A stretch of 44,173 bases of DNA from a virus. The translations under genes were made by a program, and so were the position numbers. The stretch lies in IMG/VR virus record IMGVR_UViG_3300025168_000170, positions 1 through 44,173 of that record. One strand, written 5' to 3'. A model generated the notes under the pieces. The model saw only the letters and a program-made list of their open reading frames with translations. It had not been told where the DNA came from and made no database searches. This document shows positions 13,222-31,084 of the stretch, one piece after another. Every line of letters begins with the position of its first letter. The stretch's first letter is position 1.

Positions 13222-14814
13222 TTAAGTGTTGTCACTAAAACCGGTAGGAGATGATACGGCTACGTAATATCCTACCACATTATTGGAGTCTGCTCGTAGG
13301 AACGCATCGAACTCGTCGTTATTTGCGCGTGGGATAGCAATCTGCACTTCTGCGGCATCAGTTAGTGTGAAAGCCAGTGACATTGTTGCAAACTGGTCAG
13401 CGTCTGTCCGCACATTAGTGGTTATACTCACTACGTTAGGGGTAGTATTTCCGCCTGGGTAACTACCTCCTTTATGAATACCTATTCTAACTCGCCCGTC
13501 ACTCCTTTGAGTGTCGTTTAATTGGACCATGCAATTCATAATATAACTTCCTGCAGGGAGGAAAGTAGAGTTTGACCTATTTGATGCGAGCGCCGGCGCA
13601 AGATATCTATAAGCTTTACCTTTCATGCTTTCTAATTCAATAACCCTACTTGTAAGGTTTAGAATTTCCTGATTGAGAGTATCTGTTATAGGGACTGTAA
13701 TAGCTTTAGCATGGGTCTCAGTAACAAACGGGTTGTTTGCGTTAGGTGAAAGGGAGGCTGCGATAGCTTGTCTTTCGGCAAGTGCCAATTCAGCAGTTCT
13801 GAAGAATGGTCTGATATCCTTTAAATATTGTTCGGGGATTGGTGCACCTTCTACGTGGCTTTGAGGAACATACACATAAGCAAGGGGAAGAAAGAAGCTT
13901 GCGTTCTTATTTGAGTCTGCCCACTCCGCTAGAGTCTGTGAGATTTCTCCGTTTGCCATTATATCTCTTGCGAAGTTAACATTTATTACGTCGTCCGGGC
14001 TCGGGATAGTACCAAACTCAGGGCTGGGAACAATATCCCCTTCTAGATTTCTTCCGTAATCATTTAAAGTTTCCTGGCTTTCGCCCACGGTAATAAACCT
14101 TTCGCCAATTACTACTTCTCGTCTGTTATTACCTCCTACAATTCCAGCACCTTTTACGACTGCTAATCGAGGGAATCCGTCGCCCGTCAATACTCCTGGA
14201 GCTTCAGCATTTCCCGGTACCCAAGGGTCGTCCATAGACCCATTCATAGTAGTAATACCGATAAGGTCGATACGACCTGCTGGCGCGGTTGTGTTCCCGT
14301 CAAGGCTAGTTGCGTCGACCCAGTCTTCGAACTCGTCAAAGCCGAATTTATCTATACTAACATTACCACCTTTAAAATTAAATACAGAAGTTCTGCCTAC
14401 GTCTGAGTTGTTTATGGAGCCTGGGTTAAATACGGAATAGTTTCCTGTTGGGTTATTCCCGGTTCCGAATGTGGTAGGAGGCTCTGTCACCTCCTGTAGA
14501 CCGTCAAAGCCTTGATTAGTATCAGGAGCTCCGCCACCAAGTTCGGAGGAGGAACTCCTTTGTGTGCGACCAATAAAATTACCAGGTCTTACAGATATAG
14601 TTCCTGGTATCCCAGCATCTATAAAAGGTTGGAGCTCTGTGAACCCAGCTCTGCCTACAGTATTTCCCCTATCAGATGAATTAATCTCATCAATTTGAGA
14701 TTGAAGTCGTACATCGTTGGACAACAAATCCTCTAAAGGAAGGTTGTCTACTTGATAGTAGTACGGGTCTGCGGGTAGGTAAAACCTAATATCTTCATTA
14801 ACTCTTTGTGCCAT
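13222..14814 (-). CDS. Virion structural protein, probable fibre or baseplate appendage (530 residues)
   Basis: The N-terminus MAQRVNEDIRFYLPADPYYY then QVDNLPLEDLL carries a DN[LI]PL motif shared with the next protein upstream in the operon, suggesting a common docking site on the baseplate. A beta-rich middle with many Gly, Asn and Pro residues follows. A coiled-coil-like stretch lies near 375-400 (LNQEILNLTSRVIELESMKG). The C-terminal domain (about 405-530) looks like a beta-sandwich (SYIMNCMVQLNDTQRSDGRV, MSLAFTLTDAAEVQIAIPRA). Coiled coil plus beta domain suggests a trimeric fibre. It is the last gene of the 30-kb tail operon. Its ATG forms TAATG with the preceding stop, and GGAGAG lies about 9 nt upstream. 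Function is inferred. Confidence 0.75.
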   Translation of the reverse strand: MAQRVNEDIRFYLPADPYYYQVDNLPLEDLLSNDVRLQSQIDEINSSDRGNTVGRAGFTELQPFIDAGIPGTISVRPGNFIGRTQRSSSSELGGGAPDTNQGFDGLQEVTEPPTTFGTGNNPTGNYSVFNPGSINNSDVGRTSVFNFKGGNVSIDKFGFDEFEDWVDATSLDGNTTAPAGRIDLIGITTMNGSMDDPWVPGNAEAPGVLTGDGFPRLAVVKGAGIVGGNNRREVVIGERFITVGESQETLNDYGRNLEGDIVPSPEFGTIPSPDDVINVNFARDIMANGEISQTLAEWADSNKNASFFLPLAYVYVPQSHVEGAPIPEQYLKDIRPFFRTAELALAERQAIAASLSPNANNPFVTETHAKAITVPITDTLNQEILNLTSRVIELESMKGKAYRYLAPALASNRSNSTFLPAGSYIMNCMVQLNDTQRSDGRVRIGIHKGGSYPGGNTTPNVVSITTNVRTDADQFATMSLAFTLTDAAEVQIAIPRANNDEFDAFLRADSNNVVGYYVAVSSPTGFSDNT

Positions 14815-17800
14815 TATACTAATCTCTCCAGGTCAAATATGTTGAGCGACCTTACTCCCACTCCAAACGAGGCTTTATCGGTGTCGGCATCTCGACCCTC
14901 TCCTCCGGCTTGACCCCCCATATGGGACCTATAAATGGAGACCCCGTTAACTTTATCTTCAGCCATATGTTTCGCGTTTTGCCACATACCAGCTGCACTT
15001 TCATCGAACCAATTTCTCATATACCCTAGTGAATCCATACCTAAAGGTGGTAGAGGGGTTACTGGTTCAGCGGTGGTATATATCCATCCACTATAATCTT
15101 TACCTTCCAAGCCGGAAGTTGCGTTGTAAGCACTGAATCCACCTAATCTAGGTTGCATGGTTGCTACACCTGCAGAAGGGTTCATCGAAGGCATTCCCCA
15201 GCCAAATACCCTTAGGCAGCTGGATAGTTGGTAGATACCATTTGGGAAGTCCGAGTCGGTTCCTGTAATACGTCGGATGTTATCGGCTGGACCTAAAACA
15301 CGAACATTCTGTGTCCAGTGCGGGTATCCTGCGCCGTTAACTTGGTCTACAGGGGAGCCTCCTGATAATGCGGTGTCTCGCCATCCGTCTGCGCCCGTTG
15401 ATACCCCACTTAAAGTACTTACATCATAAAACGATTTAAGGTCGCCTCGAGTAGACATCATTAGGCGGAAAACCCCAGTATTAGCAAAGACAGAACCACA
15501 ACCACCATAGGTAGTTCTACGACCACCTAAACCGTAGTAGTCACAAGCTACTCCGTTTCTCCATTTACCCATTGGACCGTGACAGTTACTTGGGGGGTTA
15601 GGGTTGCCTACGGAACTTAGAGACCATGTTAGTGGGTCCATTCCGTTTGCTAGAATATTTGAAGCATGGATACGAGAAGTATCTGCGATATTCCAAATCT
15701 GAATTTGGCCGCCCATACATTCCACATCGGACATTAAACTTCCGTCTGGTGCGTTGATAATGGCTCCCGCTTTCGTTCTCATGTAAGCACGGTAACGGAC
15801 GCGAGGGTCTCGCTCATCTCCAATTACAGTCATACTTCCTACCTGGTCGTTCTGTGTGGTTGCGCCAAACTGGGAGTCTATTGTTCCCTGTCCAGCTACA
15901 GTTGCTAATGCACCTTGATTAGTTTGGTTTTGGAGTGTAGCATTGGTCGCGGTACTGCCGCCAATTCCAACAGTATTGGTGAAGTCGTTACCGGTTTCGC
16001 CAGTTCCACCTCCTAAGCCGTCGCCGTCTCCATCCAAGGGACCTGGACCCTCGCTATACAGTTGACCGTCGCCCGGCTCGATGTGGTAAGTGTTACCTCC
16101 ACCTCCAGCTCCAACATCTGGTTTAGTGTCTGCGAATAGTTCACAGCCTGTTCCATTTAGGTTGTAATATATACCTGATACAGAAGACGCTGCGCCTTGG
16201 AAATGGAAGTTAACAAGGTTTACGTCTATCGCGCTATCTTCAACAGCTCGGACGCACATACCGCCTGTCATACCATCTCGGTGAAAGTGGTCTGTGGCTC
16301 CAGTATCCTGCGTTCTGATTTCAGGGGTGGTAGTATTGAAACTTAAGTTGTTGGCTAGACCTGGTGATAACGACACTCTTGCTGCATAATCAGTTATTAC
16401 GCCACTCACAAAAGCATTCGGATAAAACTTAACATACCCAGCAGAGGTGGACCTATCCCATTGAGAGTTTTGGTCTCCGATATACGCATCAGCATATCCC
16501 GTAGCAAATACATCGACAGAGTTAAGAGTTTGTGAAGTTGGACCTTCAACAACCTTCCCGCCCAAACCAAATAATTCGATATTAGAGTTCTTATTTGCAA
16601 CCAAACAAGCTCTCGTCGAATGGATTTCCAGTTTTGTATGGTTAGGCTGTGTTACTGCGGTACTTACATACGGAAGAAGATGGTACCCGGATATGTCCAG
16701 GATATTATCGGTACCGATAAAAGTAGGAGGTTTAACTTTAAGATTAGAGTTATTCTCTGCTAAGAAAGGTACTCCAAATCGAGTGGATTTGGTTGGACCA
16801 GTTACTTCAACGTTTGAGTTATCACTCGCTACTACGCCCGCAGACATCCAACTTCTAAATTGCTGTGCGTGAGTGGTAACAGGAAAATAATTAAAAGTGG
16901 TACAGGTAGAAGAGGTTCCTCTAAACGTTAAGTTAGAACCATTAGAAGCGATAGCGACTTTACCTTTTCCAGTATCATGTGAGTCGACAGCATAGTTAAC
17001 CCCAACCAGTTCTGCGTCAGAGTTATTAGTAACGACTATTCCCGGCTGATTATTTGCTCTATATGGAGTTGCTCCGAAGTGAGTTGCTGGTAGGTATCTA
17101 ACATCGTTAGCTATGTCGTAATCTGAGTCGGTAGGGTTATCATTTAGCCAATCGCATCCCCCCCATTGTCCTACATGTAAAGGGATATTATTTATTTGTG
17201 CTACTTGTATAGATGATGACTTGTCAATCAATAAGTTTTGGTTATTGGAATCTACGTGGAATTGTGCACGGTTTCTAATACGCCGGTTTTTTATTTCAGT
17301 AGGACCTGCGCCAAAGTTATTTGTTTGAATAGAACCGTTGATAATACGGGAACCTTGAGTAACTTGAGAGTAGCCGTCTGCACGTACTAGGAAGTTTTCA
17401 CTTCCTCCTCCATACGTCAGTTGGGAGCCTTCTAAACTTACACCCCATGCCGAATTATTATTACAAGTAAATTGAGGGAAAGCTCCTTGGGAGCGTCTTA
17501 GACGAATACCATCCCCTACGTTGAGGTAAGAGTTTATTCGCCCATTGAAATCAATGTCAGTTCCTTCGCTGTATAATCCATGCTCATTACAATCAGAAAT
17601 ATTGATTGTGGTTGTGAGGGTGTCACCGCCAGCACCTGAACAATTTATCAATGAAATCCCATTAACCGTTCGGTCCAGACCGTAGAGCTGCGAACCTCCG
17701 TTAGGGACTGCGGACACATCCGCGGTCCAGTTAATTCCGCCTCGTATCGTGGAATTTCTTAAATCCATGCCACGCTTAGACTTAGTAAACAAGTTAATGT

Positions 17801-19055
17801 ATTTTCTTGAATCTAGGTAACTAGTAGAATCCCATTCGACATCGCTATTGAGGGCGTAGAAGCCTACACCATTCTGTAGTCTCTCGGTAGCCAGTTTTCC
17901 AGTTTTTGTATAGTTGCGATAAGCAATACAGTGCCCTGTCACCTTAACTCTAGAGTTAGTAGCTCTAAACCCGCCTAAGGCACTTCTCATAGAAGTAACA
18001 TTATCTAAAATCACTTCGGTGTTTTCTATATCAAGACCGTACTCTCCTCTATGAATTTGTCCTTCCGCACCGTCGTAATCATTTTGAGTGTTACCTGCGT
18101 CAACAAGAATATCCCTAAGAATAACCGTACCTTGACAGTCTTTGAGCGAGATAGAGCTAAAGTATGCTCCATATCCGACAAGGGTACTTTGTCCTTGGGT
18201 GTATTCTACGGCACGTTTTTGAATCATGTAGTCGGCGGTAGATGAGCCGTACCAAGGGGTTGCATCTCCCCACGCGCTTGCAGCAGTACCTGCGATAGCT
18301 GTATCTGCGCCAGCACCCCAATCATTTCGCCAATCGTATGGGTGGGGAATGACAAACCTGCCGGCAGCGGTTCCTTTCCAGCTACGCGTGGTGCCTCCAG
18401 ATGCGACATACGCCGTAATATTATTTGCTTGGCGGTCTGTGTCCGGTCCCTGCATGGTGAATAAGCGGGCATTATCGTACCAGGAAGTTGCGTCCGCAAA
18501 CTCTAAACCGAGTCTAGTGGACGAGACATTCATCATAGTAGCTGAAGCGAATACCGAATTGACGCTTTTAACGTACTCGCGGTTTGTTAGCGCGGAGTCA
18601 GCTGGGCTTCCAGACACGTCTTCTACAGAGAAGGCAGATGCATTTACATCTTGGAAAAACGCTTTGTTTCTAACCTCTAATTTTCCTGCTCCCTCACAAG
18701 TAATATTGGCGAGGTCCAAGTGTCCAAGTTGCCCGTACCTACAAATTTCAATTAGGACAGGGAACTTAAGTCTTTTAGGTATTCTTTCAACAATATCGTC
18801 AATAGAATCATAAATGGCTTTGCTTTCATCGTAATTACCTTCAGACGAAAGGGTAAAAGTTACGCCTTCGGGGTTTCCTCCGGGGGAGCCCATGGCATTA
18901 TAAAGGGTATCTCCTCTTTGTTCGATAACCCACAAAGGTATATTATCTTGTTCCCAGTTATAAAAAGAACTTGGGTCATATTTAGGAACATCTCCCCAAT
19001 TGAGGGGGATGATTCCATCACCGCCTACACTACTTACGTTTTTGAAACTTACCAT
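14814..19055 (-). CDS. Giant beta-helix virion protein, probable tailspike or fibre
   Basis: This protein of about 1413 residues has a probable right-handed parallel beta-helix from about residue 340 to 850. Short coils repeat the pattern N-[SNT]-x-[LIVA]-x-[LVF], for example NTEVILDN, NSRVKVTG, GSNLTFRG, NSNVEVTG, NSNLKVKP and NSNIELFG. The N-terminal YNWEQDNIPLWVIEQRGDTL shares the DN[LI]PL docking motif with the 530-residue protein. A Ca-loop-like DGDGDGLGGG lies further on. No catalytic triad is obvious, so binding rather than depolymerisation cannot be excluded. I place the start at the second Met (19055), where it forms TAATG with the preceding stop as at several other junctions; the first ATG at 19073 would add 6 residues and overlap by 19 bp. 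Confidence 0.8.
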   Translation of the reverse strand: MVSFKNVSSVGGDGIIPLNWGDVPKYDPSSFYNWEQDNIPLWVIEQRGDTLYNAMGSPGGNPEGVTFTLSSEGNYDESKAIYDSIDDIVERIPKRLKFPVLIEICRYGQLGHLDLANITCEGAGKLEVRNKAFFQDVNASAFSVEDVSGSPADSALTNREYVKSVNSVFASATMMNVSSTRLGLEFADATSWYDNARLFTMQGPDTDRQANNITAYVASGGTTRSWKGTAAGRFVIPHPYDWRNDWGAGADTAIAGTAASAWGDATPWYGSSTADYMIQKRAVEYTQGQSTLVGYGAYFSSISLKDCQGTVILRDILVDAGNTQNDYDGAEGQIHRGEYGLDIENTEVILDNVTSMRSALGGFRATNSRVKVTGHCIAYRNYTKTGKLATERLQNGVGFYALNSDVEWDSTSYLDSRKYINLFTKSKRGMDLRNSTIRGGINWTADVSAVPNGGSQLYGLDRTVNGISLINCSGAGGDTLTTTINISDCNEHGLYSEGTDIDFNGRINSYLNVGDGIRLRRSQGAFPQFTCNNNSAWGVSLEGSQLTYGGGSENFLVRADGYSQVTQGSRIINGSIQTNNFGAGPTEIKNRRIRNRAQFHVDSNNQNLLIDKSSSIQVAQINNIPLHVGQWGGCDWLNDNPTDSDYDIANDVRYLPATHFGATPYRANNQPGIVVTNNSDAELVGVNYAVDSHDTGKGKVAIASNGSNLTFRGTSSTCTTFNYFPVTTHAQQFRSWMSAGVVASDNSNVEVTGPTKSTRFGVPFLAENNSNLKVKPPTFIGTDNILDISGYHLLPYVSTAVTQPNHTKLEIHSTRACLVANKNSNIELFGLGGKVVEGPTSQTLNSVDVFATGYADAYIGDQNSQWDRSTSAGYVKFYPNAFVSGVITDYAARVSLSPGLANNLSFNTTTPEIRTQDTGATDHFHRDGMTGGMCVRAVEDSAIDVNLVNFHFQGAASSVSGIYYNLNGTGCELFADTKPDVGAGGGGNTYHIEPGDGQLYSEGPGPLDGDGDGLGGGTGETGNDFTNTVGIGGSTATNATLQNQTNQGALATVAGQGTIDSQFGATTQNDQVGSMTVIGDERDPRVRYRAYMRTKAGAIINAPDGSLMSDVECMGGQIQIWNIADTSRIHASNILANGMDPLTWSLSSVGNPNPPSNCHGPMGKWRNGVACDYYGLGGRRTTYGGCGSVFANTGVFRLMMSTRGDLKSFYDVSTLSGVSTGADGWRDTALSGGSPVDQVNGAGYPHWTQNVRVLGPADNIRRITGTDSDFPNGIYQLSSCLRVFGWGMPSMNPSAGVATMQPRLGGFSAYNATSGLEGKDYSGWIYTTAEPVTPLPPLGMDSLGYMRNWFDESAAGMWQNAKHMAEDKVNGVSIYRSHMGGQAGGEGRDADTDKASFGVGVRSLNIFDLERLV

Positions 19056-19657
19056 TAGAATTCTATCGTCCATCTAAAGACTAAAATAAATGCGTCGGTC
19101 TTATAAATCTTTTTAAAGTACCGGTACGCGCATAACATGGAAGCATCAGTGGTTTCCACATAAGGGTTTTTGCTATACAGCCCAATCTCATTAATGTACC
19201 CTTCAGGGTAATCAGGAGTGGGGTCGCCTACGTTGAGGGTTTGTTCGTCTAATACAATTTGCCACATACATTTCGTGGGGGTAATACGTTTAATATAACC
19301 ATAAGGGATTCGACCAAAAGGAGTAGTAGAGCCTCCTTTAGCTCCATCCGCGATGAGGTTGTGAATGCTCATATCCAAGTTTCCAGTTCCGTACTGTGCG
19401 CGGTTAAACGGGTCTTCTACATCCGACCTACTTGAAACTTGGTAGGCTGCTTGCCCTCCAGACCCACAACGAAAATATACGCATTGGAAATTTTCTACAT
19501 CTACAGTCGGCTCTGCATCAAACATCTCCGCTAAGGTGGCTCCCATACCACTACAAATAACATTGTCGTCTTTGAAGTGAAGTTCCTTGCTTCCATCTGG
19601 ATAATGCTTCCAGACTTCTAAGTGTCCATGGGGATTTGATTTTTCGAGAAATTTCAT
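19055..19657 (-). CDS. 200-residue virion structural protein, paralogue of the ends of the 1501-residue neighbour
   Basis: The N-terminal HGHLEVWKHYPDGSKELHFK and the C-terminal YINEIGLYSKNP and ILVFRWTIEF give a compact beta-rich protein. The neighbouring 1501-residue protein begins with a similar pattern (GNIEIFQSYGDEHKSLYTGS) and ends similarly: both have GLY about 40 residues before the C-terminus and finish with an aromatic [FI]xW(T/D)I(E/N)[FY] strand. I infer that the two are paralogues. It is probably a minor baseplate or fibre-attachment protein. It sits in the fibre operon with 1-bp spacing from its upstream neighbour. There is no Shine-Dalgarno element; TACTAAA precedes the ATG. 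Confidence 0.75.
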   Translation of the reverse strand: MKFLEKSNPHGHLEVWKHYPDGSKELHFKDDNVICSGMGATLAEMFDAEPTVDVENFQCVYFRCGSGGQAAYQVSSRSDVEDPFNRAQYGTGNLDMSIHNLIADGAKGGSTTPFGRIPYGYIKRITPTKCMWQIVLDEQTLNVGDPTPDYPEGYINEIGLYSKNPYVETTDASMLCAYRYFKKIYKTDAFILVFRWTIEF

Positions 19658-19658
19658 T

Positions 19659-22600
19659 TTAGTAATTGATATCCCATATTATAGTAATATGGTCTGTGTT
19701 ATCGTAATCTATTTTTAGACCAGGTGGAAATGTTACTTTCTTATTGGTTAGATTAAAGACAGGATTCCGGGAAGGGTCTGCTATTTTATATAGTCCTACT
19801 CGTGAAGTTCCGTCATATGTGGTTCCAGTTCCGCTAATCTGGAAAGCGGTGCCTAATTTTTTATAACTTTTCTTGTAATCAAGGCTGTTTAGTCCTAAGG
19901 CTCCCAGTCCACCCATATAATAATCCAAAAACCTCCAATCGTCTTTATGAAGTTTTAAGACATACCGAAGAGTTTTGTGGGAGTAAGTATTAGCCGGAGT
20001 GCTCAAGTAAGAAGATACGATAAACCCAGCGCTGGCGTCTCGCGCCGAATCGTCAGGACTAGCGAGAACGTTACGGTAAATATACCCATCGCTGTTGACG
20101 ACGCCCATTTGGTTGAGAACACCAGACACTAAACCTCCACTAGGAGCTAACCCGTAAGGTTGTTGGGAGTTCTGTAAGCCATAAGTTCCTGAGCCGAAAA
20201 AGAGTCCTGCAGAAGGGAGGTAGGCTCCCATGGCTACAGCTTCCTCTAAAGTCTTCTCCCCTGTAATAGACGGAGCCATTGGGTTATTAATCGCTCGCAA
20301 ACCGCTTAAGTCTGGACCGTCAGTGGCGGCTTGGCTTGTTAGTTTTGCTGGGTAATAGTCAAAGAAATTAATTCTGTTTAAGAATTGTCCGAGTTCGCCG
20401 GGGTTACCAGAAGGTTGCGTTGATTGAAGTGTTATGTCAGCTGGAGTCGGGAACTCAGGGAAATTAAACGTTGCCCCCGATACATGGTAATGGTTGGAGG
20501 AGGCGTCAGTCCATTTATAAACTTTAAAATCTTTTATAGCAATATCACGCGCGTTAGTTCCCCCAGCATCCACAATAAAACTTGCCGTTATCTTGGTGTT
20601 AGGTCCAAACGGGGGAGTTATAACTTGAGAAGAAATCAGTTGATTCCAAGTTTTAGCGTCAGCGAAAAACTCATCAGTGCTTTGGGCGCTTCTGTTGTAT
20701 AAAGGAAAAGATAAAATTCTTAGTTCTGTCCCTGGATTCCATTCTCTTGTAGTGAGGTCATACTGATAGCGTACCCCGTTGTACTTTGCTTCAAGCGCTA
20801 CTTTAATACTGTCGGTAGCTGTGTCGAGAGAAATTCCTTCTAGCCCAACAGCAAACAGCTCTCCGCTTTTGAGATTATACTCCCCTAATGTAAAGTTTTG
20901 GGTAAGCCACGGAGCAAACGACAAACTGGTCTCATTCTGAATTTGCATAAGGGGAACGAAGATTGGGTTTGCTACTCCACCCCCACCAGAGGTAGCTTTA
21001 AACATGAGACCTCCAGGTGTGGTCCACGCAGTCATGGCTGACGGGGAAGTTGTGTTGGATAATATTGCCGCGCCGTTATTACGGTTTCGAAGTTTGAAGA
21101 CGGCGCCGTCGTCGTATTCATCGTAATGAGTGTTTCCGTAGGGCTCGCTTGTCCACTTGCTTGCATCTCGAATCCATCTACTTCTACCGTTACTGGCTAC
21201 TAAGGAGACATCTTGCAAGCTAACATCGTAGAGGGTGTATACTCCACCTGCAGCATCGATAATGTTAAGTTGGTATTCAGTATCTCTATCCAAACCATAT
21301 AAAGCCATTTTGGAAATAAGATTACTTGGGCACGAAATAAAACTTTCTGGTGAGTCGTCGGTGTTTTCAGAATAGTAATCCGTGGCTTGGATGGGTTCCG
21401 GTTGCCAGTCACCAGCTGTAAAATTATAATATAACTCTTTCCATATATCCACATTGGTTCCGAGACCGGGTCCCTTGAGAGCAAGGTCGCTAATTAAGGT
21501 TGAGCCGGCTTCTGCGTTAGGTCCGTACACGCCTGCTGTTATCCGGTAATCGCCACGACTGCCTAAAGTATCAGGCGTCTCTGCATAGTATCTGCGGAGT
21601 ATTCCGCTGTTTACACTGGGTAGGGTAACCTTGTTCGAGTATGTGTATGGGGTGAAGTTGGAGGTATTGGTTTCAGAAGGTAAAGGCAAGAAGTACATTC
21701 CGGAAGCGCTTCCTCGGTACCTAGGTATTGTTCCCGTTACAAAAGAATCCCATTCGGCTGTCTGCCAGTTAAAGAATGTAGGGAAGCCGGAACCTTCACT
21801 CATAGAACTTAGTACAAAGTAAGAAGGTGTATTTAAACTGTTAAATACCTTCATAGAGAGTGTGTACTCTCCAGCATTGGCAGCGAGGGTATCAGAGGTG
21901 ATAGAGCTTGCAGCGGATGAGCCGGATGCCGTAACCCATAAACCCCAATCTAAAGGGGTGGAGCTCTCATCGTTTAGAGATTTAGAAAAGAACGGGTGCG
22001 TAGCTCTGTGAGCTGCGGTATTGGTAAAATAAGGGTTTAAGTTAGTTGGGGTGTTTAACGCGCTGTAGTTTCCCCCATTCTCTTGCATCCATGTAGATAA
22101 GACATTATAGTTATTTGTCCCAGGAGTAGTTCTCGCTTTTGCCTTTAAACTATACTTAAATTGAGGTAACGTGTTTCCCGCGTAAGTCCCTTTGACTGCT
22201 ACCCTATAGGTTTTAGTCGGTTCCAACCCAACGAAGTTTTGGACTAATTGTGTTTTAGCTGGGACATTAATCCCATTTATTGATGTAGTAATGTCAGCAG
22301 CAGCCGTGCCTCCTAACGTAGCGTACCTAGTAGCACTTAATTGTAATCCTGAAAAAAGTTTGCCTGGCGTTACGCGGGGTCCGTCCGAATTAATTGCCCA
22401 CTTGGAAATACCACTTTGGTCGTATACATAGGTTCTCCATCCAGCTAGTGGACCAAAAGAAAAATTTCTTATTAAATAATAACAGAACCCGTTAGTCCCA
22501 TCGCTTCTTCCAGTACCCGCGATGCTAATAGTATATGACTCTTGCTGCGCGTCGGCTGGGAGGATGACCTGGGCTCCTGTATGGTACCAAGTATTTTTGG

Positions 22601-24164
22601 CGGTGTAAGAAGTATTAAAAGTATTCCCCCCAGCAACCCAAATATCATTTTGTAAAGTTATGCTTTGTTGTGTGAAGCTATATTTAAACCCATCGGAATC
22701 TCTTGTTAAGGTAACTTGAAGATTTCCACAATTCGCTGCGGTGGCTTCCCCGGACACCATTGTGTCGAAAGATAGCATTAAGGTTCGGTTGTTATCGTAT
22801 TGCCCGTTAGCGGCGGCTAGTAGCTCTGGTTCACTGCTGTTCTCATTGGCAAACGCGAAAGTATTTTTATACTCGTTTCCTAAATTAAACGTTTGTTCTA
22901 TTAATGCAGCCCCACTAGAATCTAATTCAATGGAAGACGCATACAACGCTATCCCATCAAGTTGAGTGAGGTCAATCGCTTTTTGATTTGTTGACAGAGG
23001 AAAGACTGCCCCTACCTGATTGTTGTCCTCTCTATTTCCAGGGTCGCTTGAGTCCCTGACGAGCGGGTTTAACTGTGTCCAGCCTGGAGTCTTATAAAGA
23101 CCTGCTTGGCTGCATCCATTAGGATTCTTGGCATCAGAAGCAGGGAACTCTGCCACTATGTCAAAATCGTTATTGATTAACAAGCTTTGATGTTCTAGAA
23201 AGTTAGGGTTCCTGAGAATTTGGTGGCGCTCGTCACATACTTCCAGACGCACAATATTAATGTAAGGATTTACGTAATTCTCATCCCATGGCGCAAAACT
23301 TTCATCTACAAAACCTATGGACGGAAAGATATATTCAACAAAGTATTCGTTGTTTGGTTGGAATGCTTGGTCTCTTGCGCTACCATTTAAGCGGAATCTG
23401 AACTCATCAACCTCGTAGAAATTCTTGAGCCTTACCGTATGGCTCAAATCGGTATTGTCTTTGTCCAGAACAACAAATCGTTCAGTAACAAAATCATAGT
23501 ACTCCAAAGGAACATCATTCTTTCCGCGCGAAATACGAATATCCATAGTGGCGTTAAGGGCTTTCCCGTTAGTGTATAAAGTATAAACACCCCCCATTTC
23601 CATTTCCGGGAGTCTTTGTCGCAGAGTTACTTGTTCCTGCCCTGCGACCAACTCGAATTTGGTGATATGGACTTCGCCTTCCGAGGTAATATCTGTTGTG
23701 GGGGTTAGCATGCCCTCCGACATATTATGCAAATAGTTTACAGTCCATCCTGCTGTCGTCCTTAAGGTCGGGTTAACTAATAAGTTAGCGTCTACTTGGT
23801 TATCATATTTCCATTGGTTGAATCCTATACTAGAATAGCAATCCCACATCTCGAATACGGCATTATCCGTAACAGGTAAGAGTTGGTAGTTCTCGGCGGA
23901 CGTTGCCATCCCACTATACCAGAATCTCGAGTCTCGTTGAGAGTATCCTTCTTTAGCACTTCCTAAGGTCATAGCTTGGATTTGATAGCTAGATACTGAG
24001 CTTGTCCCAACTTCCATTTGTGCCCCTCCACTAGGGTTAGGCATATAGGTCATTACGTCGGCAATAGTTTTCCTAAAACCATCAACCACCATGTTGGAGC
24101 CTGTGTAAAGACTCTTATGCTCGTCTCCATAACTTTGGAAAATTTCTATATTACCTTTAATCAT
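19659..24164 (-). CDS. Giant modular adhesin (1501 residues) with repeated carbohydrate-binding-like modules
   Basis: Conserved ends (about 1-110 and 1400-1501) resemble the 200-residue neighbour. Between them lie repeated beta-sandwich modules. Each module starts with a strand like GxxYxLxVxG (GGVYTLYTNGKA at about 191, EPTKTYRVAVKG at 648, AGEYTLSMKVFN at 764, GDYRITAGVYGP at 871, GELFAVGLEGIS at 1101). Four also contain an aromatic-[DN]-x-x-T-xx-[WF] turn (YYDFVTERF at 222, FFNWQTAEW at 797, YYNFTAGDW at 912, YQYDLTTREW at 1133). NLLVNPTLRTTAGW (127) resembles the opening of CBM4/9-type domains. It probably binds host glycans from the tail. The start overlaps the upstream stop by 8 bp. Confidence 0.78.
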   Translation of the reverse strand: MIKGNIEIFQSYGDEHKSLYTGSNMVVDGFRKTIADVMTYMPNPSGGAQMEVGTSSVSSYQIQAMTLGSAKEGYSQRDSRFWYSGMATSAENYQLLPVTDNAVFEMWDCYSSIGFNQWKYDNQVDANLLVNPTLRTTAGWTVNYLHNMSEGMLTPTTDITSEGEVHITKFELVAGQEQVTLRQRLPEMEMGGVYTLYTNGKALNATMDIRISRGKNDVPLEYYDFVTERFVVLDKDNTDLSHTVRLKNFYEVDEFRFRLNGSARDQAFQPNNEYFVEYIFPSIGFVDESFAPWDENYVNPYINIVRLEVCDERHQILRNPNFLEHQSLLINNDFDIVAEFPASDAKNPNGCSQAGLYKTPGWTQLNPLVRDSSDPGNREDNNQVGAVFPLSTNQKAIDLTQLDGIALYASSIELDSSGAALIEQTFNLGNEYKNTFAFANENSSEPELLAAANGQYDNNRTLMLSFDTMVSGEATAANCGNLQVTLTRDSDGFKYSFTQQSITLQNDIWVAGGNTFNTSYTAKNTWYHTGAQVILPADAQQESYTISIAGTGRSDGTNGFCYYLIRNFSFGPLAGWRTYVYDQSGISKWAINSDGPRVTPGKLFSGLQLSATRYATLGGTAAADITTSINGINVPAKTQLVQNFVGLEPTKTYRVAVKGTYAGNTLPQFKYSLKAKARTTPGTNNYNVLSTWMQENGGNYSALNTPTNLNPYFTNTAAHRATHPFFSKSLNDESSTPLDWGLWVTASGSSAASSITSDTLAANAGEYTLSMKVFNSLNTPSYFVLSSMSEGSGFPTFFNWQTAEWDSFVTGTIPRYRGSASGMYFLPLPSETNTSNFTPYTYSNKVTLPSVNSGILRRYYAETPDTLGSRGDYRITAGVYGPNAEAGSTLISDLALKGPGLGTNVDIWKELYYNFTAGDWQPEPIQATDYYSENTDDSPESFISCPSNLISKMALYGLDRDTEYQLNIIDAAGGVYTLYDVSLQDVSLVASNGRSRWIRDASKWTSEPYGNTHYDEYDDGAVFKLRNRNNGAAILSNTTSPSAMTAWTTPGGLMFKATSGGGGVANPIFVPLMQIQNETSLSFAPWLTQNFTLGEYNLKSGELFAVGLEGISLDTATDSIKVALEAKYNGVRYQYDLTTREWNPGTELRILSFPLYNRSAQSTDEFFADAKTWNQLISSQVITPPFGPNTKITASFIVDAGGTNARDIAIKDFKVYKWTDASSNHYHVSGATFNFPEFPTPADITLQSTQPSGNPGELGQFLNRINFFDYYPAKLTSQAATDGPDLSGLRAINNPMAPSITGEKTLEEAVAMGAYLPSAGLFFGSGTYGLQNSQQPYGLAPSGGLVSGVLNQMGVVNSDGYIYRNVLASPDDSARDASAGFIVSSYLSTPANTYSHKTLRYVLKLHKDDWRFLDYYMGGLGALGLNSLDYKKSYKKLGTAFQISGTGTTYDGTSRVGLYKIADPSRNPVFNLTNKKVTFPPGLKIDYDNTDHITIIWDINY

Positions 24165-27100
24165 TTTCTATAAATCCGTAAATTCCGTTTGTAGCAGAAT
24201 GGCTGCCTCCCCAATATTCTAGATACTCGCTACGGCTTCCTCCTGATAATAGGTAGGTTCCGGAGGAATCTCTAGCGTCTCTCGAAGATTTGCTTATACT
24301 TAAATCATCAAAGAAATCAAATATATCTACAAAATCCTTTCTAGTATAGTCTTCAGCATAAACATTATAGAGTTTATTTACAATATCTACTCCTAATAAT
24401 GTTACTCCATTAAATTCTCCAGTTCTATCTCGTTTACCTACCTCCACATAGTAGACAGTTTCGTCATTATGTACTGGACCCGCAGAAAGGAAGTATCCAC
24501 CTAAGGGACCATCTTGAGAGAGGGAATGGTACTTGAGGGGGGTGCGGCTGTTCTGAGTGTTAAACTCGAGGATGTGGCGAGTAGGCTCGATAGAACTCCC
24601 AGGGAAGGTTAACTGTTTCCACTGCCTATCGTTAGAGGTTTCCTTCGAATTAGACCATGATTTGGATACCCAATCATAACACCAACTCTTGGCGAACGAA
24701 CTCCAGCCGTTTCCTAAAAAAGGTTTCAGGTCTGTTACAACTCTCACATACAAGTTTTCATTAGGGTGGGTTTGCGCTGCTGCTATTCTAGCAACCCGTG
24801 CATTAATACCTAAGAGGTACTCCTCATCTTTGAAGAGTTTATTTCCCTGTCTACCAGCAGTAATCTTTGTAATACCTTGTTCATGGTTTTCGATTCTGAT
24901 ATTTCTTATAACGTACCCATTAACATTAGTTTTAGCTCTGGAAGCGGGGGAGATAAATAATTGGTAATTGTCGTTTTGGTGGAAGGTAGATGACGGGGTA
25001 ATAGTTCCTATAAAAGTACTAAACGCAGGTTCTATCACAACGCTACTAACCATGCAGTTTACTAAATTAGACGATAAAGTGTTATCTATTTCCCTCCACT
25101 GTCCCACAGTGTTTGTGTCGTATTGCGTGGTCGGCTGTACCCATTGTTTATTTTGAGTTACGTTAAATAGGGCGTACGTAAGTTTACTGTTTACTCCCGG
25201 ATAGGCAGATGCGTCTATGGAAAGACGGTATGAGTTAGACGGAGTTAATGTTCTTAAGTTAGCAGGGGTTTGGCGGTCCGTTACATCAACAACGGTCGCG
25301 ACGTTAGGGGTTTGGGCTGTTCCTAATACCCCCGACATAACACCTAGAGTTCCTGTGCCAGAAGTCCCTCCTTTGCCCTGTATGCGGATGTAAGGTAGCC
25401 CGCTCGCAGCTGTATTCCAAAACTCTATTTTCGAGGTTCCGTGTCCGAGATGCCCATCTTGATTAATTACGGGAGTTCTGTTTTCGTCTTGGAGTGCCCA
25501 GCCCGCGATTGCGGATAGCGATTTGCTTCCACGAGCTTCTAGATTTCTTGGAGGAAACTTTAAGTTTCCATTATAAGAGTAATTCATATTACCGTCTAGA
25601 GCATATCTTGCGCGAACTGTTTGGAAAGGATTGTCCGTTCCATGCCGTTGCACCAAGGTAATCCCACTTGGAGAAGTTAAATCAATATTATAAGATGGGT
25701 TGGAAGGGTTATTCCATACCGCAAACGAGTTAACTTGAGGAGCCACAAAATCTATACCAGAAAGCAGAGTATTGTTGGTGTGGTAAATCTCACTTGGGTG
25801 TTCAAACACATCCAGCGGGTTTTCGTACGTGCCATAAGCTCCGGCAGCCAAAATACCGTTTGTAAGTTCGACGTCTTCGCCTAAAACGTTAATATATACA
25901 TTGTTTATTCCTACAGCCCGTGTAGCTGCAACCCCACTCCAATCTGGGTTAAGGGCGGAGATGCTTCCTCCGAAGGTTCTAGGGTAAGATTTAGACCCTA
26001 AGTTATCTTGTATATTACCTTTAATAGAAAAGTTATGGTTAAATAATAGAGGACCAAACACATGAGCTAGGATGTTAAACCCTCCCGCGTACCTGTCACC
26101 ACCCACCTGCGTCTCTTGGTCTATCCAACACTGAAGTTGTTTTCTGAACGTGTTGTTGTAATCCCAGTAAAGTTTTTGGGTGCCTTGTCCGAACTTAAAG
26201 TTCTCGAAACCTTGGTCTGTAAAACGGTACCACCTAGCATCCTTCCTCCCACGTCTCACAAAGGTTTCCGTCATAGCTCGCAAAATCTGCGAGCCAAAAA
26301 CATCCCTTAACTGATTAAAGCTAGAAGCATTCGGTTCAAAGTCTGGGATGGCACGGGCAGGGAAGAATGATGATGAGTTAAACTCGAAGAACGGTGTAGC
26401 AGAGGTGTTATAGTATGAGTAAACTGAGGATAAACTTCCGCTTGTGTCTACAAAATTTTGAGAGGAGAAGTTAAATCCTTTTGGTACGAAGCCTGGAAGA
26501 TTAAGACCTCTGGCTTTAAGAACGGGTTGGAGGGTTCCTCCACTCATACCAAACCAATCTGTGCTAATAGGTTGGTTGAGTCCTTGTCTGTTTTGTGCCC
26601 AGCCGGTAAATTTATATTTTAAATCTTTTCTTCTGCCGGCGGTTCTTCTTGCGATAAGCTGTTTAAGACCTAAGTCATCTTCAACTCCACCACCACTCCA
26701 GAAATACCCCGGGGCTGTAGTTCCTCTTGTTCCAACGAGAGTTGCGGATGGTAGATACCGTCCGTTCTGTGGATTCCATACGCTAGGAAATACCCCAACA
26801 CCACTAAAGGAGCCACCTGCAGCCCACGCGCCTGGGAAGGCGGACGCGGTATACGAGCTATGGAGTTGGTCCATGTCGGATTGAATAGTATTTACTACTT
26901 CAATGTCTGTAGTTCCGGACCACGGGATGTCGTGGTTTGTATCACCAACGGGACCATATCGCGTTCCCCAATAATCATCAACGATACCGGACCCAACATA
27001 AATCTTATTCAGGGTGTGAAAAGGTGAGAATTGGCGGAATATATTAACGATGGTTGGGATTCCTTTACGTCCAATTTTAGTCTTGGCTAGATTTGTATAA

Positions 27101-29037
27101 TCATTAGAGGAGAAATCAATCGAAGAAACAAAAAACTTGCTGTGCACCTCCGAAGATTTGGAATTCCAAAAATCAAAAACACTCATACTATCTAAATCAC
27201 CGTTCCTAATCACACTTTCGTAGTTAAACGGAAGTTGTAAAGAAGAGGTCATAAATTTGAATGAATTATTGGCTCCCCACCCTGGTTCATTTATACCGTT
27301 TGCTTGTTTAATAGAGACAGAGCTTGAAATATATTTTGCTACACTATTGGCAGCAGTAGAGGATACTCCACACCCTGCTTCGTTAAACGTTCTTGATAAT
27401 ATAGAAGATACGCTACGAATAAAATTATCCATATTAGGACCAATACCGCAGTTCTGGTAGAACCTGCTTTCTTCCCAAGGAGGGATAGTAAGGAAAGCGT
27501 CTCGGTACTGGTAGCCCGGGTTTTTACCTCTCACAACCTGTTGTTGCCAGTAAGCAGTTTCCTTGTAAGGGATTCCCCCAATGTCCAAATAACCGTAATG
27601 GTAATTCAGCAGCTCTAAGATGGCGTCCACCGCGAAGCGGACATTGTTGTCTTGGTTCTGCGGGTCGTAATTAGCCACGCTTATAGGTATTCCAGACGCC
27701 GCTAAGGAAGTGGTCCACGCCTGTTTGAAGTTTAAGTACGTTTGGGGATTTTTTCCTAAATCAGTCTCGGTCTTGAGAGTGTAATAAAGAAGGTTTGGTA
27801 CGTAAGACTCCCATAACTCTTGAAGTCCCGACACCTGGTTGTTCGGGCTATAAACGGAGGACGGAATGACCATGTTGGTCGCGTTTGCCAGCGCCTGTCT
27901 AGTGCCTTTAGCTTTATAAAGATAGATAGCTTGTTTTAGTTGGTCACGCCACTTGTCAGGGTCATCAGAGAAAAATGTCCACCCTAAGTATCTTCCTAGG
28001 TATTGCAGAAATTCTTCAGGGCACTGTTCAATATCCAATAAGTATTGTATATCTCTAATAGAAGTTTGTACATCATAGAATCCGTACGCAAGTGCCTTAA
28101 GCATTTTACCCATAGGACCAGCGTTCTCCATCCTAGTTACGTCAAGTCCCAGGAGAGACGCGTTAACGATGTCTCTGAAGTATAACGAGTTAGGGTCGTC
28201 TTCGTTTACCCATACGTTCACAAGCGTGTCTAACGCGCTTACAAGCTGTCCTCCCGAGGCATAAAAATTACCTTGCTTTCCTGCAGCAGGAATGAACGTA
28301 GAGGAAGGAGTGTTGAACGGAACAGGTACAAACTTTTCTCGTACAGGAGACCATAAAGTAGACCCTCCCTTAGCGTTAGTGTACATCCATTTAAATAAGT
28401 TTCGTACGCCATCAGAAGTTTTAATTCTCTTACCGTAGTATATGTTGTCCATAATGGAACTATACAAAAAGGAACTTACACCTACTGAATTAGAATCAAC
28501 GACGGTTCCAGAAGTATTTTGGAAATATACCCATCCAAGCTTATCAATTAAGGTGTTGGATACAGCTGAGACGGTTGTAATATTAGGGTCAACAGTACCG
28601 CTGAATGCTTGAGCGAATGTGTCGCTTACATAATTGAATTGAGTGTGCGGAAGGGCGGAGGTTAAAAGAAAATTAGAAAATTCGTCCTTGTTCGTGAAAC
28701 TTCCAAAGGTTCTTCCCAAAGGTTTTAAAACATAATTCTCGTAAGTGGTAGGGCTTACATCGGTAAGATTATTGAAGGGTACAAAGTATGGGACGTACGC
28801 TTCACTTCCACTAAAAGCAGATACTTGGAGATTGTAAGTTGTCGGTGCGCCAAGCAAACTAGAAACATTATTAGCAAGATAAAGGATAGACCCTAAAACC
28901 CTATACTGTAAATCCTCCTCGGACCCAAATAAGTTGTACTCGGTCGTTTCATAATACTCAGGAACAATTCGTCTGATTACTTCAATGTAATTAGATTGAA
29001 AGTGTTCTTGTCCCGCCCCTTTGTCCGACATTGTCAT
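24157..29037 (-). CDS. Giant baseplate-fibre linker (1626 residues) with P2 gpI-like region and adhesin modules
   Basis: Residues about 325-400 (IRDIQYLLDIEQCPEEFLQY, then GWTFFSDDPDKWRDQLKQAI, YLYKAKGTRQAL) match the tail protein I type domain of contractile-tail baseplates, which connects the J-like wedge to the fibres. The gene directly follows the J/gp6-like gene, the usual I position. Beyond this the protein is far longer than gpI (about 170-200 residues). It has a long beta-rich middle and C-terminal modules of the same type as the 1501-residue protein (SYRLSIDASAYP at about 1269, TYALFNVTQNKQW at 1287, EEYLLGINARVA at 1405, CYDWVSKSWSN at 1453). It is probably a fused linker and receptor-binding protein. 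An in-frame ATG two codons in is an alternative start. Confidence 0.8.
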   Translation of the reverse strand: MTMSDKGAGQEHFQSNYIEVIRRIVPEYYETTEYNLFGSEEDLQYRVLGSILYLANNVSSLLGAPTTYNLQVSAFSGSEAYVPYFVPFNNLTDVSPTTYENYVLKPLGRTFGSFTNKDEFSNFLLTSALPHTQFNYVSDTFAQAFSGTVDPNITTVSAVSNTLIDKLGWVYFQNTSGTVVDSNSVGVSSFLYSSIMDNIYYGKRIKTSDGVRNLFKWMYTNAKGGSTLWSPVREKFVPVPFNTPSSTFIPAAGKQGNFYASGGQLVSALDTLVNVWVNEDDPNSLYFRDIVNASLLGLDVTRMENAGPMGKMLKALAYGFYDVQTSIRDIQYLLDIEQCPEEFLQYLGRYLGWTFFSDDPDKWRDQLKQAIYLYKAKGTRQALANATNMVIPSSVYSPNNQVSGLQELWESYVPNLLYYTLKTETDLGKNPQTYLNFKQAWTTSLAASGIPISVANYDPQNQDNNVRFAVDAILELLNYHYGYLDIGGIPYKETAYWQQQVVRGKNPGYQYRDAFLTIPPWEESRFYQNCGIGPNMDNFIRSVSSILSRTFNEAGCGVSSTAANSVAKYISSSVSIKQANGINEPGWGANNSFKFMTSSLQLPFNYESVIRNGDLDSMSVFDFWNSKSSEVHSKFFVSSIDFSSNDYTNLAKTKIGRKGIPTIVNIFRQFSPFHTLNKIYVGSGIVDDYWGTRYGPVGDTNHDIPWSGTTDIEVVNTIQSDMDQLHSSYTASAFPGAWAAGGSFSGVGVFPSVWNPQNGRYLPSATLVGTRGTTAPGYFWSGGGVEDDLGLKQLIARRTAGRRKDLKYKFTGWAQNRQGLNQPISTDWFGMSGGTLQPVLKARGLNLPGFVPKGFNFSSQNFVDTSGSLSSVYSYYNTSATPFFEFNSSSFFPARAIPDFEPNASSFNQLRDVFGSQILRAMTETFVRRGRKDARWYRFTDQGFENFKFGQGTQKLYWDYNNTFRKQLQCWIDQETQVGGDRYAGGFNILAHVFGPLLFNHNFSIKGNIQDNLGSKSYPRTFGGSISALNPDWSGVAATRAVGINNVYINVLGEDVELTNGILAAGAYGTYENPLDVFEHPSEIYHTNNTLLSGIDFVAPQVNSFAVWNNPSNPSYNIDLTSPSGITLVQRHGTDNPFQTVRARYALDGNMNYSYNGNLKFPPRNLEARGSKSLSAIAGWALQDENRTPVINQDGHLGHGTSKIEFWNTAASGLPYIRIQGKGGTSGTGTLGVMSGVLGTAQTPNVATVVDVTDRQTPANLRTLTPSNSYRLSIDASAYPGVNSKLTYALFNVTQNKQWVQPTTQYDTNTVGQWREIDNTLSSNLVNCMVSSVVIEPAFSTFIGTITPSSTFHQNDNYQLFISPASRAKTNVNGYVIRNIRIENHEQGITKITAGRQGNKLFKDEEYLLGINARVARIAAAQTHPNENLYVRVVTDLKPFLGNGWSSFAKSWCYDWVSKSWSNSKETSNDRQWKQLTFPGSSIEPTRHILEFNTQNSRTPLKYHSLSQDGPLGGYFLSAGPVHNDETVYYVEVGKRDRTGEFNGVTLLGVDIVNKLYNVYAEDYTRKDFVDIFDFFDDLSISKSSRDARDSSGTYLLSGGSRSEYLEYWGGSHSATNGIYGFIEND

Positions 29038-29039
29038 AG

Positions 29040-30671
29040 TTACACAAGCTCCGTACTAAATTCAAAGTTGTTTAACTGGACAATCTCGTTAAAATTAACA
29101 TAAACTTCTTCTGGAAGATTGTTTACTTGAAAGAACCTAATCTCTGGGACCGTTAACATAAAGTTGTTAACATCAGCCATGCTTATCTTTTGCCCGAAAG
29201 CTAAGTTATCAACGTCAAAGAACTCAAGAAGTTTATCTGCTGCTTTTTGTTGAATCGAATCTATAAACCTCTTGTTTGATTTATCTATGTAAAGGGTTGC
29301 TACCATATCTAACGTTCTTACTACTCCATCAGAAATAACAATGTCATCAGTTAACATTTTGTAGTTCTTAAAATAATCTAACAGTTCCTTTTTCATTGCA
29401 ACAGATGCTCTTTCTAGCTGAGTCTGGGATGCTTTAGAGAGCACGAACAAGTCAATAACGTTAGCTGCAGCCCCATTAGTTCTTAAAGAAGCCATAGCTT
29501 TGGCAGTCGTTCCTCCTGTACCCACAAACGAATTGGCGAGAACATTATAATCTTCTCCCGTAACTGCTCTGTATTGAGTTCGGAAGAAGTAAGGCGCGTA
29601 ACGTTTTGCGTGAGCTACGGACTCGGGAGGGTTTCCTCCTGAGCCTTTGGTTGTGTTTGTTATAGTTGCGTCAATCGGGTCGGTCCCTGCATTAAAGCAC
29701 CTTACGGTAGTGTCCAATGTTCCTTGGGCAATATTTCCATTACCTCCCCCACCAGTGCGGTAAGTTACTACGAAATTAGCGCCAGGGCTAGGAAGCCTTC
29801 CTCGCACTCCATCGCCGAAAGTAAGTACACACCCAAACCCACCAGTATATGTTTTCTCGAAAACAGGGGTCGTTCCGCCGGATGCTAAGAATAAGTTACT
29901 AATCTCGTTATATTTGATTCCGTTACCCGTTCCCTCAGTTGAAGATACACCAATGCTTCCCTCAATGACGGGACCATCAGTAATCTCAAAGGTTTGACGT
30001 GTTTTTACACCTCCTCTGAATACTCCTTGCGCAGTATTAAACTGCCCTTCGACCAAAAATAACCCGCTCGCGACCTGCCCATTGAAGTTCGTCGCGTCCA
30101 AGGATAAGTCCTGAGAAAATAAATCCAATGTCCCATCGGTTAATTGTTTTGTTACCGTGTAGGTTAGAGGAGAGTTACTTCTCTGGTTAATAACCTGAAT
30201 GCTTCGCGCGGCATTGTTGATTACCACCGGGAAACTTGGGGTAACGTCAGTGGGGAAGGTTAGAAGACCGGTAGCTTTGGAGGCGGTAGGTCCTTTCATA
30301 CTTACACCAATCAACTCCAGAAGCCTTTTTAAGTTGTCCTCATTCTTTACTGTATCAATGTACATTTCATTGGCTGTCATGTCTGCACGTAAGGCTAGAA
30401 CGGAGGACATATAAGCAAACATCTCCAACAACATCTGACCTAAGTCTGAGGCTGCGAAGTTATTATAGTCCAGAGGATACACTGACCTTAAGTAGTTTTG
30501 CAGAGCCTCACGGTACTGGTCAAACCCGTTTATATTGTAATCAATAAGGTCGGACTTTCGGTCGTCAGGTACCTGTCCTAATTTTAAAAAGTCGGACTCA
30601 ATGGTCCCATCAAAGCCTGAGATGTTATACAGACCTTGGAAATAGCGAGAGTAATCGGTGTTAGTTGGCAT
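29040..30671 (-). CDS. Baseplate wedge protein, J-like / T4 gp6-like
   Basis: This 543-residue protein should form the wedge ring around the baseplate hub. The N-terminal QNYLRSVYPLDYNNFAASDL, then GQMLLEMFAYMSSVLALRAD and NEMYIDTVKNEDNLKRLLEL, is the diagnostic gp6/baseplate-J pattern. A beta-rich centre contains TFGDGVRGRLPSPG. The C-terminal YRAVTGEDYNVLANSF, TLYIDKSN and KISMADVNNFMLTVPEIRFF complete the J-like fold. It is somewhat shorter than T4 gp6 (660 residues). Immediate neighbours are gp25 upstream and the gpI-like gene downstream, the conserved order W-J-I of contractile systems. Confidence 0.93.
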   Translation of the reverse strand: MPTNTDYSRYFQGLYNISGFDGTIESDFLKLGQVPDDRKSDLIDYNINGFDQYREALQNYLRSVYPLDYNNFAASDLGQMLLEMFAYMSSVLALRADMTANEMYIDTVKNEDNLKRLLELIGVSMKGPTASKATGLLTFPTDVTPSFPVVINNAARSIQVINQRSNSPLTYTVTKQLTDGTLDLFSQDLSLDATNFNGQVASGLFLVEGQFNTAQGVFRGGVKTRQTFEITDGPVIEGSIGVSSTEGTGNGIKYNEISNLFLASGGTTPVFEKTYTGGFGCVLTFGDGVRGRLPSPGANFVVTYRTGGGGNGNIAQGTLDTTVRCFNAGTDPIDATITNTTKGSGGNPPESVAHAKRYAPYFFRTQYRAVTGEDYNVLANSFVGTGGTTAKAMASLRTNGAAANVIDLFVLSKASQTQLERASVAMKKELLDYFKNYKMLTDDIVISDGVVRTLDMVATLYIDKSNKRFIDSIQQKAADKLLEFFDVDNLAFGQKISMADVNNFMLTVPEIRFFQVNNLPEEVYVNFNEIVQLNNFEFSTELV

Positions 30672-30673
30672 AG

Positions 30674-31084
30674 TTATACGAGAACCTCCACCAGTTCTCC
30701 ATTTAATAAATCATCTTTCGATGTGATGTAAAGCTCTACTTTTAAAGTATGGTTTTCGTAGTCGGGTGTTAAAGATATACGTTTAACGATAACTCTTGTT
30801 TCATATTTAGAGATTGTTTCTAAAATCTGAGTTCTTAAACCGTCAATCATATCGTCAGTAAATTGCTCAAACACAGAGGCTCTTAAATCGGTACCGTAGT
30901 CAGGTCTCATCACCCTGGCACCTCTTCCTGTCATGATTAATTGCACAACACAATCCCTTAAAGACCGTAAATTTTCATTCTGTGCAACGTATCCACCAAT
31001 CCCTTCATTCATCATAGGGAAAGCAACGCCTAAAATATTATTCTTAGCGCTAGTTTTTACATAAGTTAGTTCAAAGTTGGTCAT
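30674..31084 (-). CDS. Baseplate wedge protein gp25-like (GPW/gp25 family)
   Basis: This 136-residue protein is a small wedge component that starts sheath polymerisation. It shows the family order: an N-terminal strand, NLRSLRDCVVQLIMTGRGAR, VMRPDYGTDLRASVFEQ, a helix DDMIDGLRTQILETISKYET, and strands RVIVKRISLTP and TLKVELYIT. The MRPDYG block corresponds to the conserved P-xYG site after the TxxGER-type motif, here in the form TGRGAR. Length is typical (T4 gp25 is 132 residues). It lies directly before the J-like wedge gene. Confidence 0.93.
   Translation of the reverse strand: MTNFELTYVKTSAKNNILGVAFPMMNEGIGGYVAQNENLRSLRDCVVQLIMTGRGARVMRPDYGTDLRASVFEQFTDDMIDGLRTQILETISKYETRVIVKRISLTPDYENHTLKVELYITSKDDLLNGELVEVLV

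Follow-up and report, generated by a model that had tools for sequence, protein, structure and literature searches.

Two neighbouring giant genes of an uncultured T4-like virus encode proteins, here called A and B, whose modules would together form a polysaccharide-binding skirt on the baseplate, anchored through a wedge domain and conserved end domains; we give this reading a probability of roughly 60%. The window, by which we mean the whole stretch of DNA analysed, is 44,173 bases long and corresponds to one uncultured virus record; almost all of its genes lie on the minus strand. It is T4-like in that it bears gp23, gp25 and gp6, the major head protein being a distant one of the gp23 type. 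A first, sequence-only reading of this DNA had described two adjacent open reading frames of 1626 and 1501 residues, and both are present on the minus strand. The features discussed below are as follows.

30674..31084, minus strand: gp25-like baseplate wedge protein (phrog_261, E 6.8e-21)
29040..30671, minus strand: gp6-like baseplate wedge protein (phrog_219, E 2e-33)
24157..29037, minus strand: protein A, 1626 aa (open reading frame; Tail_P2_I; phrog_48 tail protein)
27766..28122, minus strand: Tail_P2_I domain of A, residues 306-424 (Pfam; best conserved stretch)
25537..25920, minus strand: A 1040-1167, beta-rich, uncertain, possibly a partial module (AlphaFold secondary structure)
24880..25536, minus strand: A module 1 (1168-1386), predicted CBM4/9-like beta-sandwich (AlphaFold, Foldseek, CBM_4_9 matches of orthologues)
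25141-25167, minus strand: hairpin FNVTQNKQW (A1291) of A module 1
24352..24879, minus strand: A module 2 (1387-1562), beta-rich, opening half not obvious (AlphaFold, profiles, orthologue hairpin)
24655-24681, minus strand: hairpin CYDWVSKSW (A1453) of A module 2
24160..24351, minus strand: conserved C-terminal tail of A (identity 0.70 in far orthologues)
19659..24164, minus strand: protein B, 1501 aa, module array (open reading frame)
23835..24164, minus strand: N-terminal anchor of B (1-110), with homology to the N-terminal end of the 200-aa product encoded next
23217..23807, minus strand: B module 1 (120-316), opening ANLLVNPTLRTTAGWTVNY (AlphaFold, Foldseek, orthologue hairpin)
23475-23501, minus strand: hairpin YYDFVTERF (B222) of B module 1
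22440..23216, minus strand: B module 2 (317-575), without a clear hairpin motif (AlphaFold strands, profile match)
22020..22439, minus strand: B module 3a (576-715), first half-module, with strands TQLVQNF, TYRVAVKGTY and FKYSLKAK (AlphaFold, profiles)
21459..22019, minus strand: B module 4 (716-902) (AlphaFold, profiles, orthologue hairpin)
21750-21776, minus strand: hairpin FFNWQTAEW (B797) of B module 4
21210..21458, minus strand: B module 5/3b (903-985), second half-module (AlphaFold, profiles, orthologue hairpin)
21405-21431, minus strand: hairpin YYNFTAGDW (B912) of B module 5/3b
20490..21131, minus strand: B module 6 (1012-1225) (AlphaFold, profiles, conservation)
20739-20768, minus strand: hairpin YQYDLTTREW (B1133) of B module 6
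19662..20489, minus strand: conserved C-terminal part of B (1226-1501; identity 0.63 in far orthologues)

Along the minus strand the genes run in the order gp25, gp6, A, B, then those for proteins of 200, 1419 and 530 residues, and the start of B overlaps the end of A by 8 bases. Residues 306-424 of A match the Pfam family Tail_P2_I with 26.8 bits (gathering cut-off 20.6; E 5.3e-6), and the gene follows directly after those for gp25 and gp6. Because of this domain and this position A is, judged by sequence, a gpI/gp7-like third baseplate-wedge protein that is greatly extended at its C-terminal end. The N-terminus of B is related to that of the 200-aa product (19055-19657; hhalign probability 93%, E 3.6e-7), and both match phrog_5417, a family of unknown function, although B does so weakly. 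This common N-terminal domain is likely a baseplate-docking domain. Homology between the C-termini of the same two proteins was unsupported.

Two other gene products of the window should be recorded here. The 1419-aa protein encoded downstream of B (14814-19073) has repeated short strands that appear beta-helix-like by eye, gave no Pfam match and no credible PDB match, and is perhaps a tail spike. A 578-aa protein of the tail operon (41284-43020) matches endolysin/peptidase PHROGs in its C-terminal part (phrog_34252, E 7.2e-9) and is possibly a tail hub lysin.

Dozens of orthologous loci are found in IMG/VR, and B lies directly after A wherever the contig is long enough. In the far orthologues the modules show identities of 0.27-0.45, compared with 0.61-0.75 for the wedge domain and the end anchors (0.75 over A 301-430, the Tail_P2_I region); the modules are the fastest-diverging parts and lie between conserved ends. 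Module 6 is the stretch of B that diverges fastest. We note that in the most divergent B orthologue (L086:11009-14461) the strands that open module 1 are missing and the rest is kept.

All six aromatic turns quoted in the sequence-only reading are found at the positions listed above, and in the AlphaFold models each is a strand-turn-strand, that is, a predicted beta-hairpin. Five of the six motifs are kept in 15/15 to 23/24 orthologues, and the A1291 turn, by the pattern used, in 14/27; the turns are mostly retained down to about 40% identity, also where their flanks have changed. A hairpin pattern fitted post hoc to these quoted turns occurs five times in B (0.65 expected from composition shuffles, P=0.0007) and five times in A (0.93 expected, P=0.0027), with three of the five matches in A lying outside the modules and with gp6 also rising above its shuffles when the pattern is looser. 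The GxxYxLxVxG strand proposed alongside the turns did not hold up, the literal motif occurring 0 times in A and 0 times in B. A loose form, Y-x-[LVI]-x-[VIAS], is enriched in B (9 against 3.2 expected, P=0.014) and not significantly in A (5 against 3.7 expected).

Structure prediction speaks for a common fold. An AlphaFold2 model of B 101-1300 built from 18 sequences (mean pLDDT 67) consists mostly of successive beta-rich stretches, and the Foldseek matches of this model in the PDB include a CBM22 tandem (4xup, E 4.5e-9), CBM61 (TMt 0.50) and CBM4 (1gui, TMt 0.47), together with glycosidase-borne CBMs, reelin and other jelly-roll proteins. The model of A 427-1626 is poor overall (mean pLDDT 51) and leaves residues 572-1029 unmodelled as folded structure, with C-terminal beta-sandwiches that match the same CBM22 tandem (4xup, E 2.1e-5), CBM4-2 (4bj0, TMt 0.62, E 0.015), GH101 and an alginate-binding CBM; for both models, searching with whole multi-domain structures gives low TMq, and the similarity is in part that of generic beta-sandwiches. 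Among viral models the B array has 319 BFVD matches at E<=0.001, many of them phage tail proteins and one named 'Carbohydrate-binding, CenC-like'. The modules are thus predicted, with moderate confidence, to have a CBM4/9/22-type jelly-roll beta-sandwich fold. The sequence-only reading was to be given up if unrelated folds appeared at these positions; its claim of a CBM-like fold is upheld, because the independent models of A and B both match CBM22 and CBM4 structures.

Whether the modules form one repeated family common to both proteins, as had been proposed, receives a mixed answer from profile comparison. Taken together, the module pairs outscore 440 module-decoy pairs (Mann-Whitney P=0.0008), and in several of the highest-scoring alignments the hairpins come to lie on each other; taken one by one, none of the pairs is convincing, the best reaching a probability of 23.6%. 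The profile of B module 2 matches that of B module 6 above most decoys, and the best match of B module 3a is A module 1, whereas A module 1 did not match B module 1 significantly when their profiles were compared directly, and A 1040-1167 did not rise above decoys. When A and B were compared in sliding windows, the best matches were in biologically sensible registers (A1254-1293/B637-676, B637-691/B1084-1140 and B913-987/B1135-1214) and were weak, none being significant alone. Since the group scores beat the decoys while individual matches stay weak, the modules are related or convergent at very great distance. Only short chance pairs were seen as repeats at the DNA level, where a recent duplication is thus absent. 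Five modules are confident (B modules 1, 2, 4 and 6, and A module 1), and the 'at least seven' of the earlier count is reached, at about seven to eight, when partial ones are included. Because B 576-715 and 903-985 each resemble half a module, module 4 could be nested, with 5/3b completing 3a around it; this is speculative, and joining the two halves gave no clear gain in profile score across the junction.

Sequence searches place the modules outside named families. A and B had no sequence match in 50,697 annotated phage records, and the modules of the window matched nothing in Pfam or the PHROGs. Searches of PDB sequences with whole-protein and single-module profiles gave nothing credible, PHROG scans across all orthologues nothing consistent, and Pfam and the PHROGs no fibre family for either protein. 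Orthologues of A module 1 match CBM_4_9 (PF02018) more often than any other Pfam family (4/20, best E 2.3e-4), and two orthologues of this module score 16.3 and 19.4 bits against it in 500-aa fragments, where the curated cut-off is 25.9 bits. We do not claim membership of this family, because the window sequences fall below the cut-off. Sequence support for a CBM fold is thin, and it points in the same direction as the models. A search of bacterial and archaeal genomes for a hint to the host found no relative.

More distant loci carry other domains at this place. In the 595-kb phage LR756511 (L095, LR756511.1 521000-570000), which is unannotated, the same gp25-gp6-gpI order is found, but the gpI-like protein (Tail_P2_I E 3.1e-10) has 617 aa and lacks the extension; the next products are a tail-collar-fibre protein and PKD proteins, the latter at the place of the window's module proteins. 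A head protein of this phage and a neighbour of it are also related to the window. A distant A homologue of at least 2102 aa (L093:2985-9290; 28-31% identity) has two Laminin_G_3-type (LamG, lectin-like) stretches, in and after the shared core. Because these two loci carry different domains there, the position after gp6 is one that hosts varied adhesion-type domains. In the same homologue a stretch NLIFNGNFEIES...GWYY reads like a CBM4/9 opening; it gave no CBM match when tested against Pfam and was set aside.

A simple explanation is that A, as the third wedge protein, and B, as the next structural protein, probably held to the baseplate by the N-terminal domain shared with its neighbour, have both been lengthened by beta-sandwich modules of a CBM4/9/22-like type, ancient and strongly diverged, which would be suspended from the wedge ring. 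Since several copies of the wedge proteins encircle the hub, these modules would be densely arrayed; their binding to host surface polysaccharide would be weak but multivalent, and would keep the baseplate attached to the cell during engagement of the actual spikes or fibres. We infer this virion location, this copy number, sugar binding and the role in adsorption; the 'multivalent glycan-binding adhesin' of the sequence-only reading agrees with the position of the genes and with how the proteins are conserved, the binding itself being putative. If this is correct, an uncultured myovirus group joins the few known contractile machines whose wedge ring, beyond the fibres, binds polysaccharide, and short modules with screenable sugar targets could hint at hosts.

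The main rival to a polysaccharide-binding skirt is a purely structural cage, in which the modules bind no sugar and act as spacers, stiffen the baseplate or hold fibres or spikes such as the 14814-19073 product. CBM-like sandwiches can serve structure only, and the CBM-like domains of AlgoCIS Alg11 do build a spike cage (PMC8894135). The conserved aromatics of the hairpins sit in strands and could belong to the fold core rather than to ligand platforms. A and B are also colinear across orthologues, which keep the module set and order, while receptor-binding parts often swap. We nevertheless consider such a cage rather unlikely, as the modules diverge faster than the anchors, lectin-like LamG domains are present in the distant homologue of A, and cell binding has been shown for a similar, CBM-bearing wedge protein (PMC11406892).

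Many of the structural neighbours are CBMs that belong to glycoside hydrolases, and the modules could, as in those enzymes, bring a domain of the same tail that degrades polysaccharide onto its substrate; the 578-aa protein with its endolysin/peptidase family matches lies in the tail operon, but Pfam and the PHROGs found no catalytic domain in A or B, and we regard this role as improbable. That generic beta-rich tail sequence was simply read as a motif by eye is the least credible explanation, and very improbable: it would account for the missing literal strand motif, the weak pairwise profile scores and the motif matches of A that lie partly outside modules, but it is largely refuted by independent predictions for A and B that land on the same CBM families, by hairpins that coincide with 6/6 motifs, and by the retention of the motif in orthologues.

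The preferred reading, a wedge-borne skirt that grips polysaccharide, has close parallels. Gp119 of the Bacillus myophage Vp4 is an 831-aa wedge protein with two CBMs that binds and decorates Bacillus cells (PMC11406892). Vp4 Gp119 and Gp111 and Deep-Blue Gp186 resemble the proteins described here in that CBM-fold modules sit on baseplate proteins of myoviruses, the third wedge protein among them, and 4BJ0, 4XUP, 8IC1 and 5W6H are among the best structural matches there as well as among the entries obtained here (PMC11406892). A is likewise a third wedge protein with modules of predicted CBM fold added, as in Gp119; the differences are that those are Bacillus phages, that the modules described here are spread over two adjacent proteins, and that A has twice the length of Gp119. 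In AlgoCIS, a contractile system of a marine bacterium, the wedge protein Alg11 also bears such modules: two CBM-like ones make up a large insertion, for which a part in attachment has been proposed (PMC8894135). AlgoCIS differs in being an injection system and not a phage, in its CBM27-like modules, and in that Alg11 is distinct from Alg12, which holds the gp7-like part (PMC8894135). The evolved Dit proteins of siphophages that infect Gram-positive bacteria (PMC7291167, PMC10688798) are similar in that a CBM inserted in a conserved tail-tip protein adds saccharide binding, and differ in belonging to siphophages and in having Dit as the carrier. Pfam CBM_4_9 and CAZy CBM4, CBM22 and CBM61 share the predicted fold, with the weak family match in A module 1 orthologues, although the window sequences are below detection.

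The proposal of an undescribed phage module family is therefore true only in part: the window modules have no Pfam or PHROG match, but CBM-fold-like arrays are widespread in phage tail proteins, as the BFVD matches show, and the literature already describes wedge proteins into which CBMs are inserted (PMC11406892, PMC8894135). With Vp4 Gp119 and AlgoCIS Alg11 as precedents, the kind of system is already described. It is possible, and we put it forward only tentatively, that the modules are a new sequence family of the CBM4/9/22 fold, specific to an uncultured myovirus clade and arranged on two neighbours as a wedge-borne, polysaccharide-gripping skirt, with B module 4 maybe nested in module 3 (576-715 and 903-985). 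What sets this case apart from the known systems is its size, a module that occurs in both of two neighbours, and an uncultured phage clade in which A and B are without a named relative.
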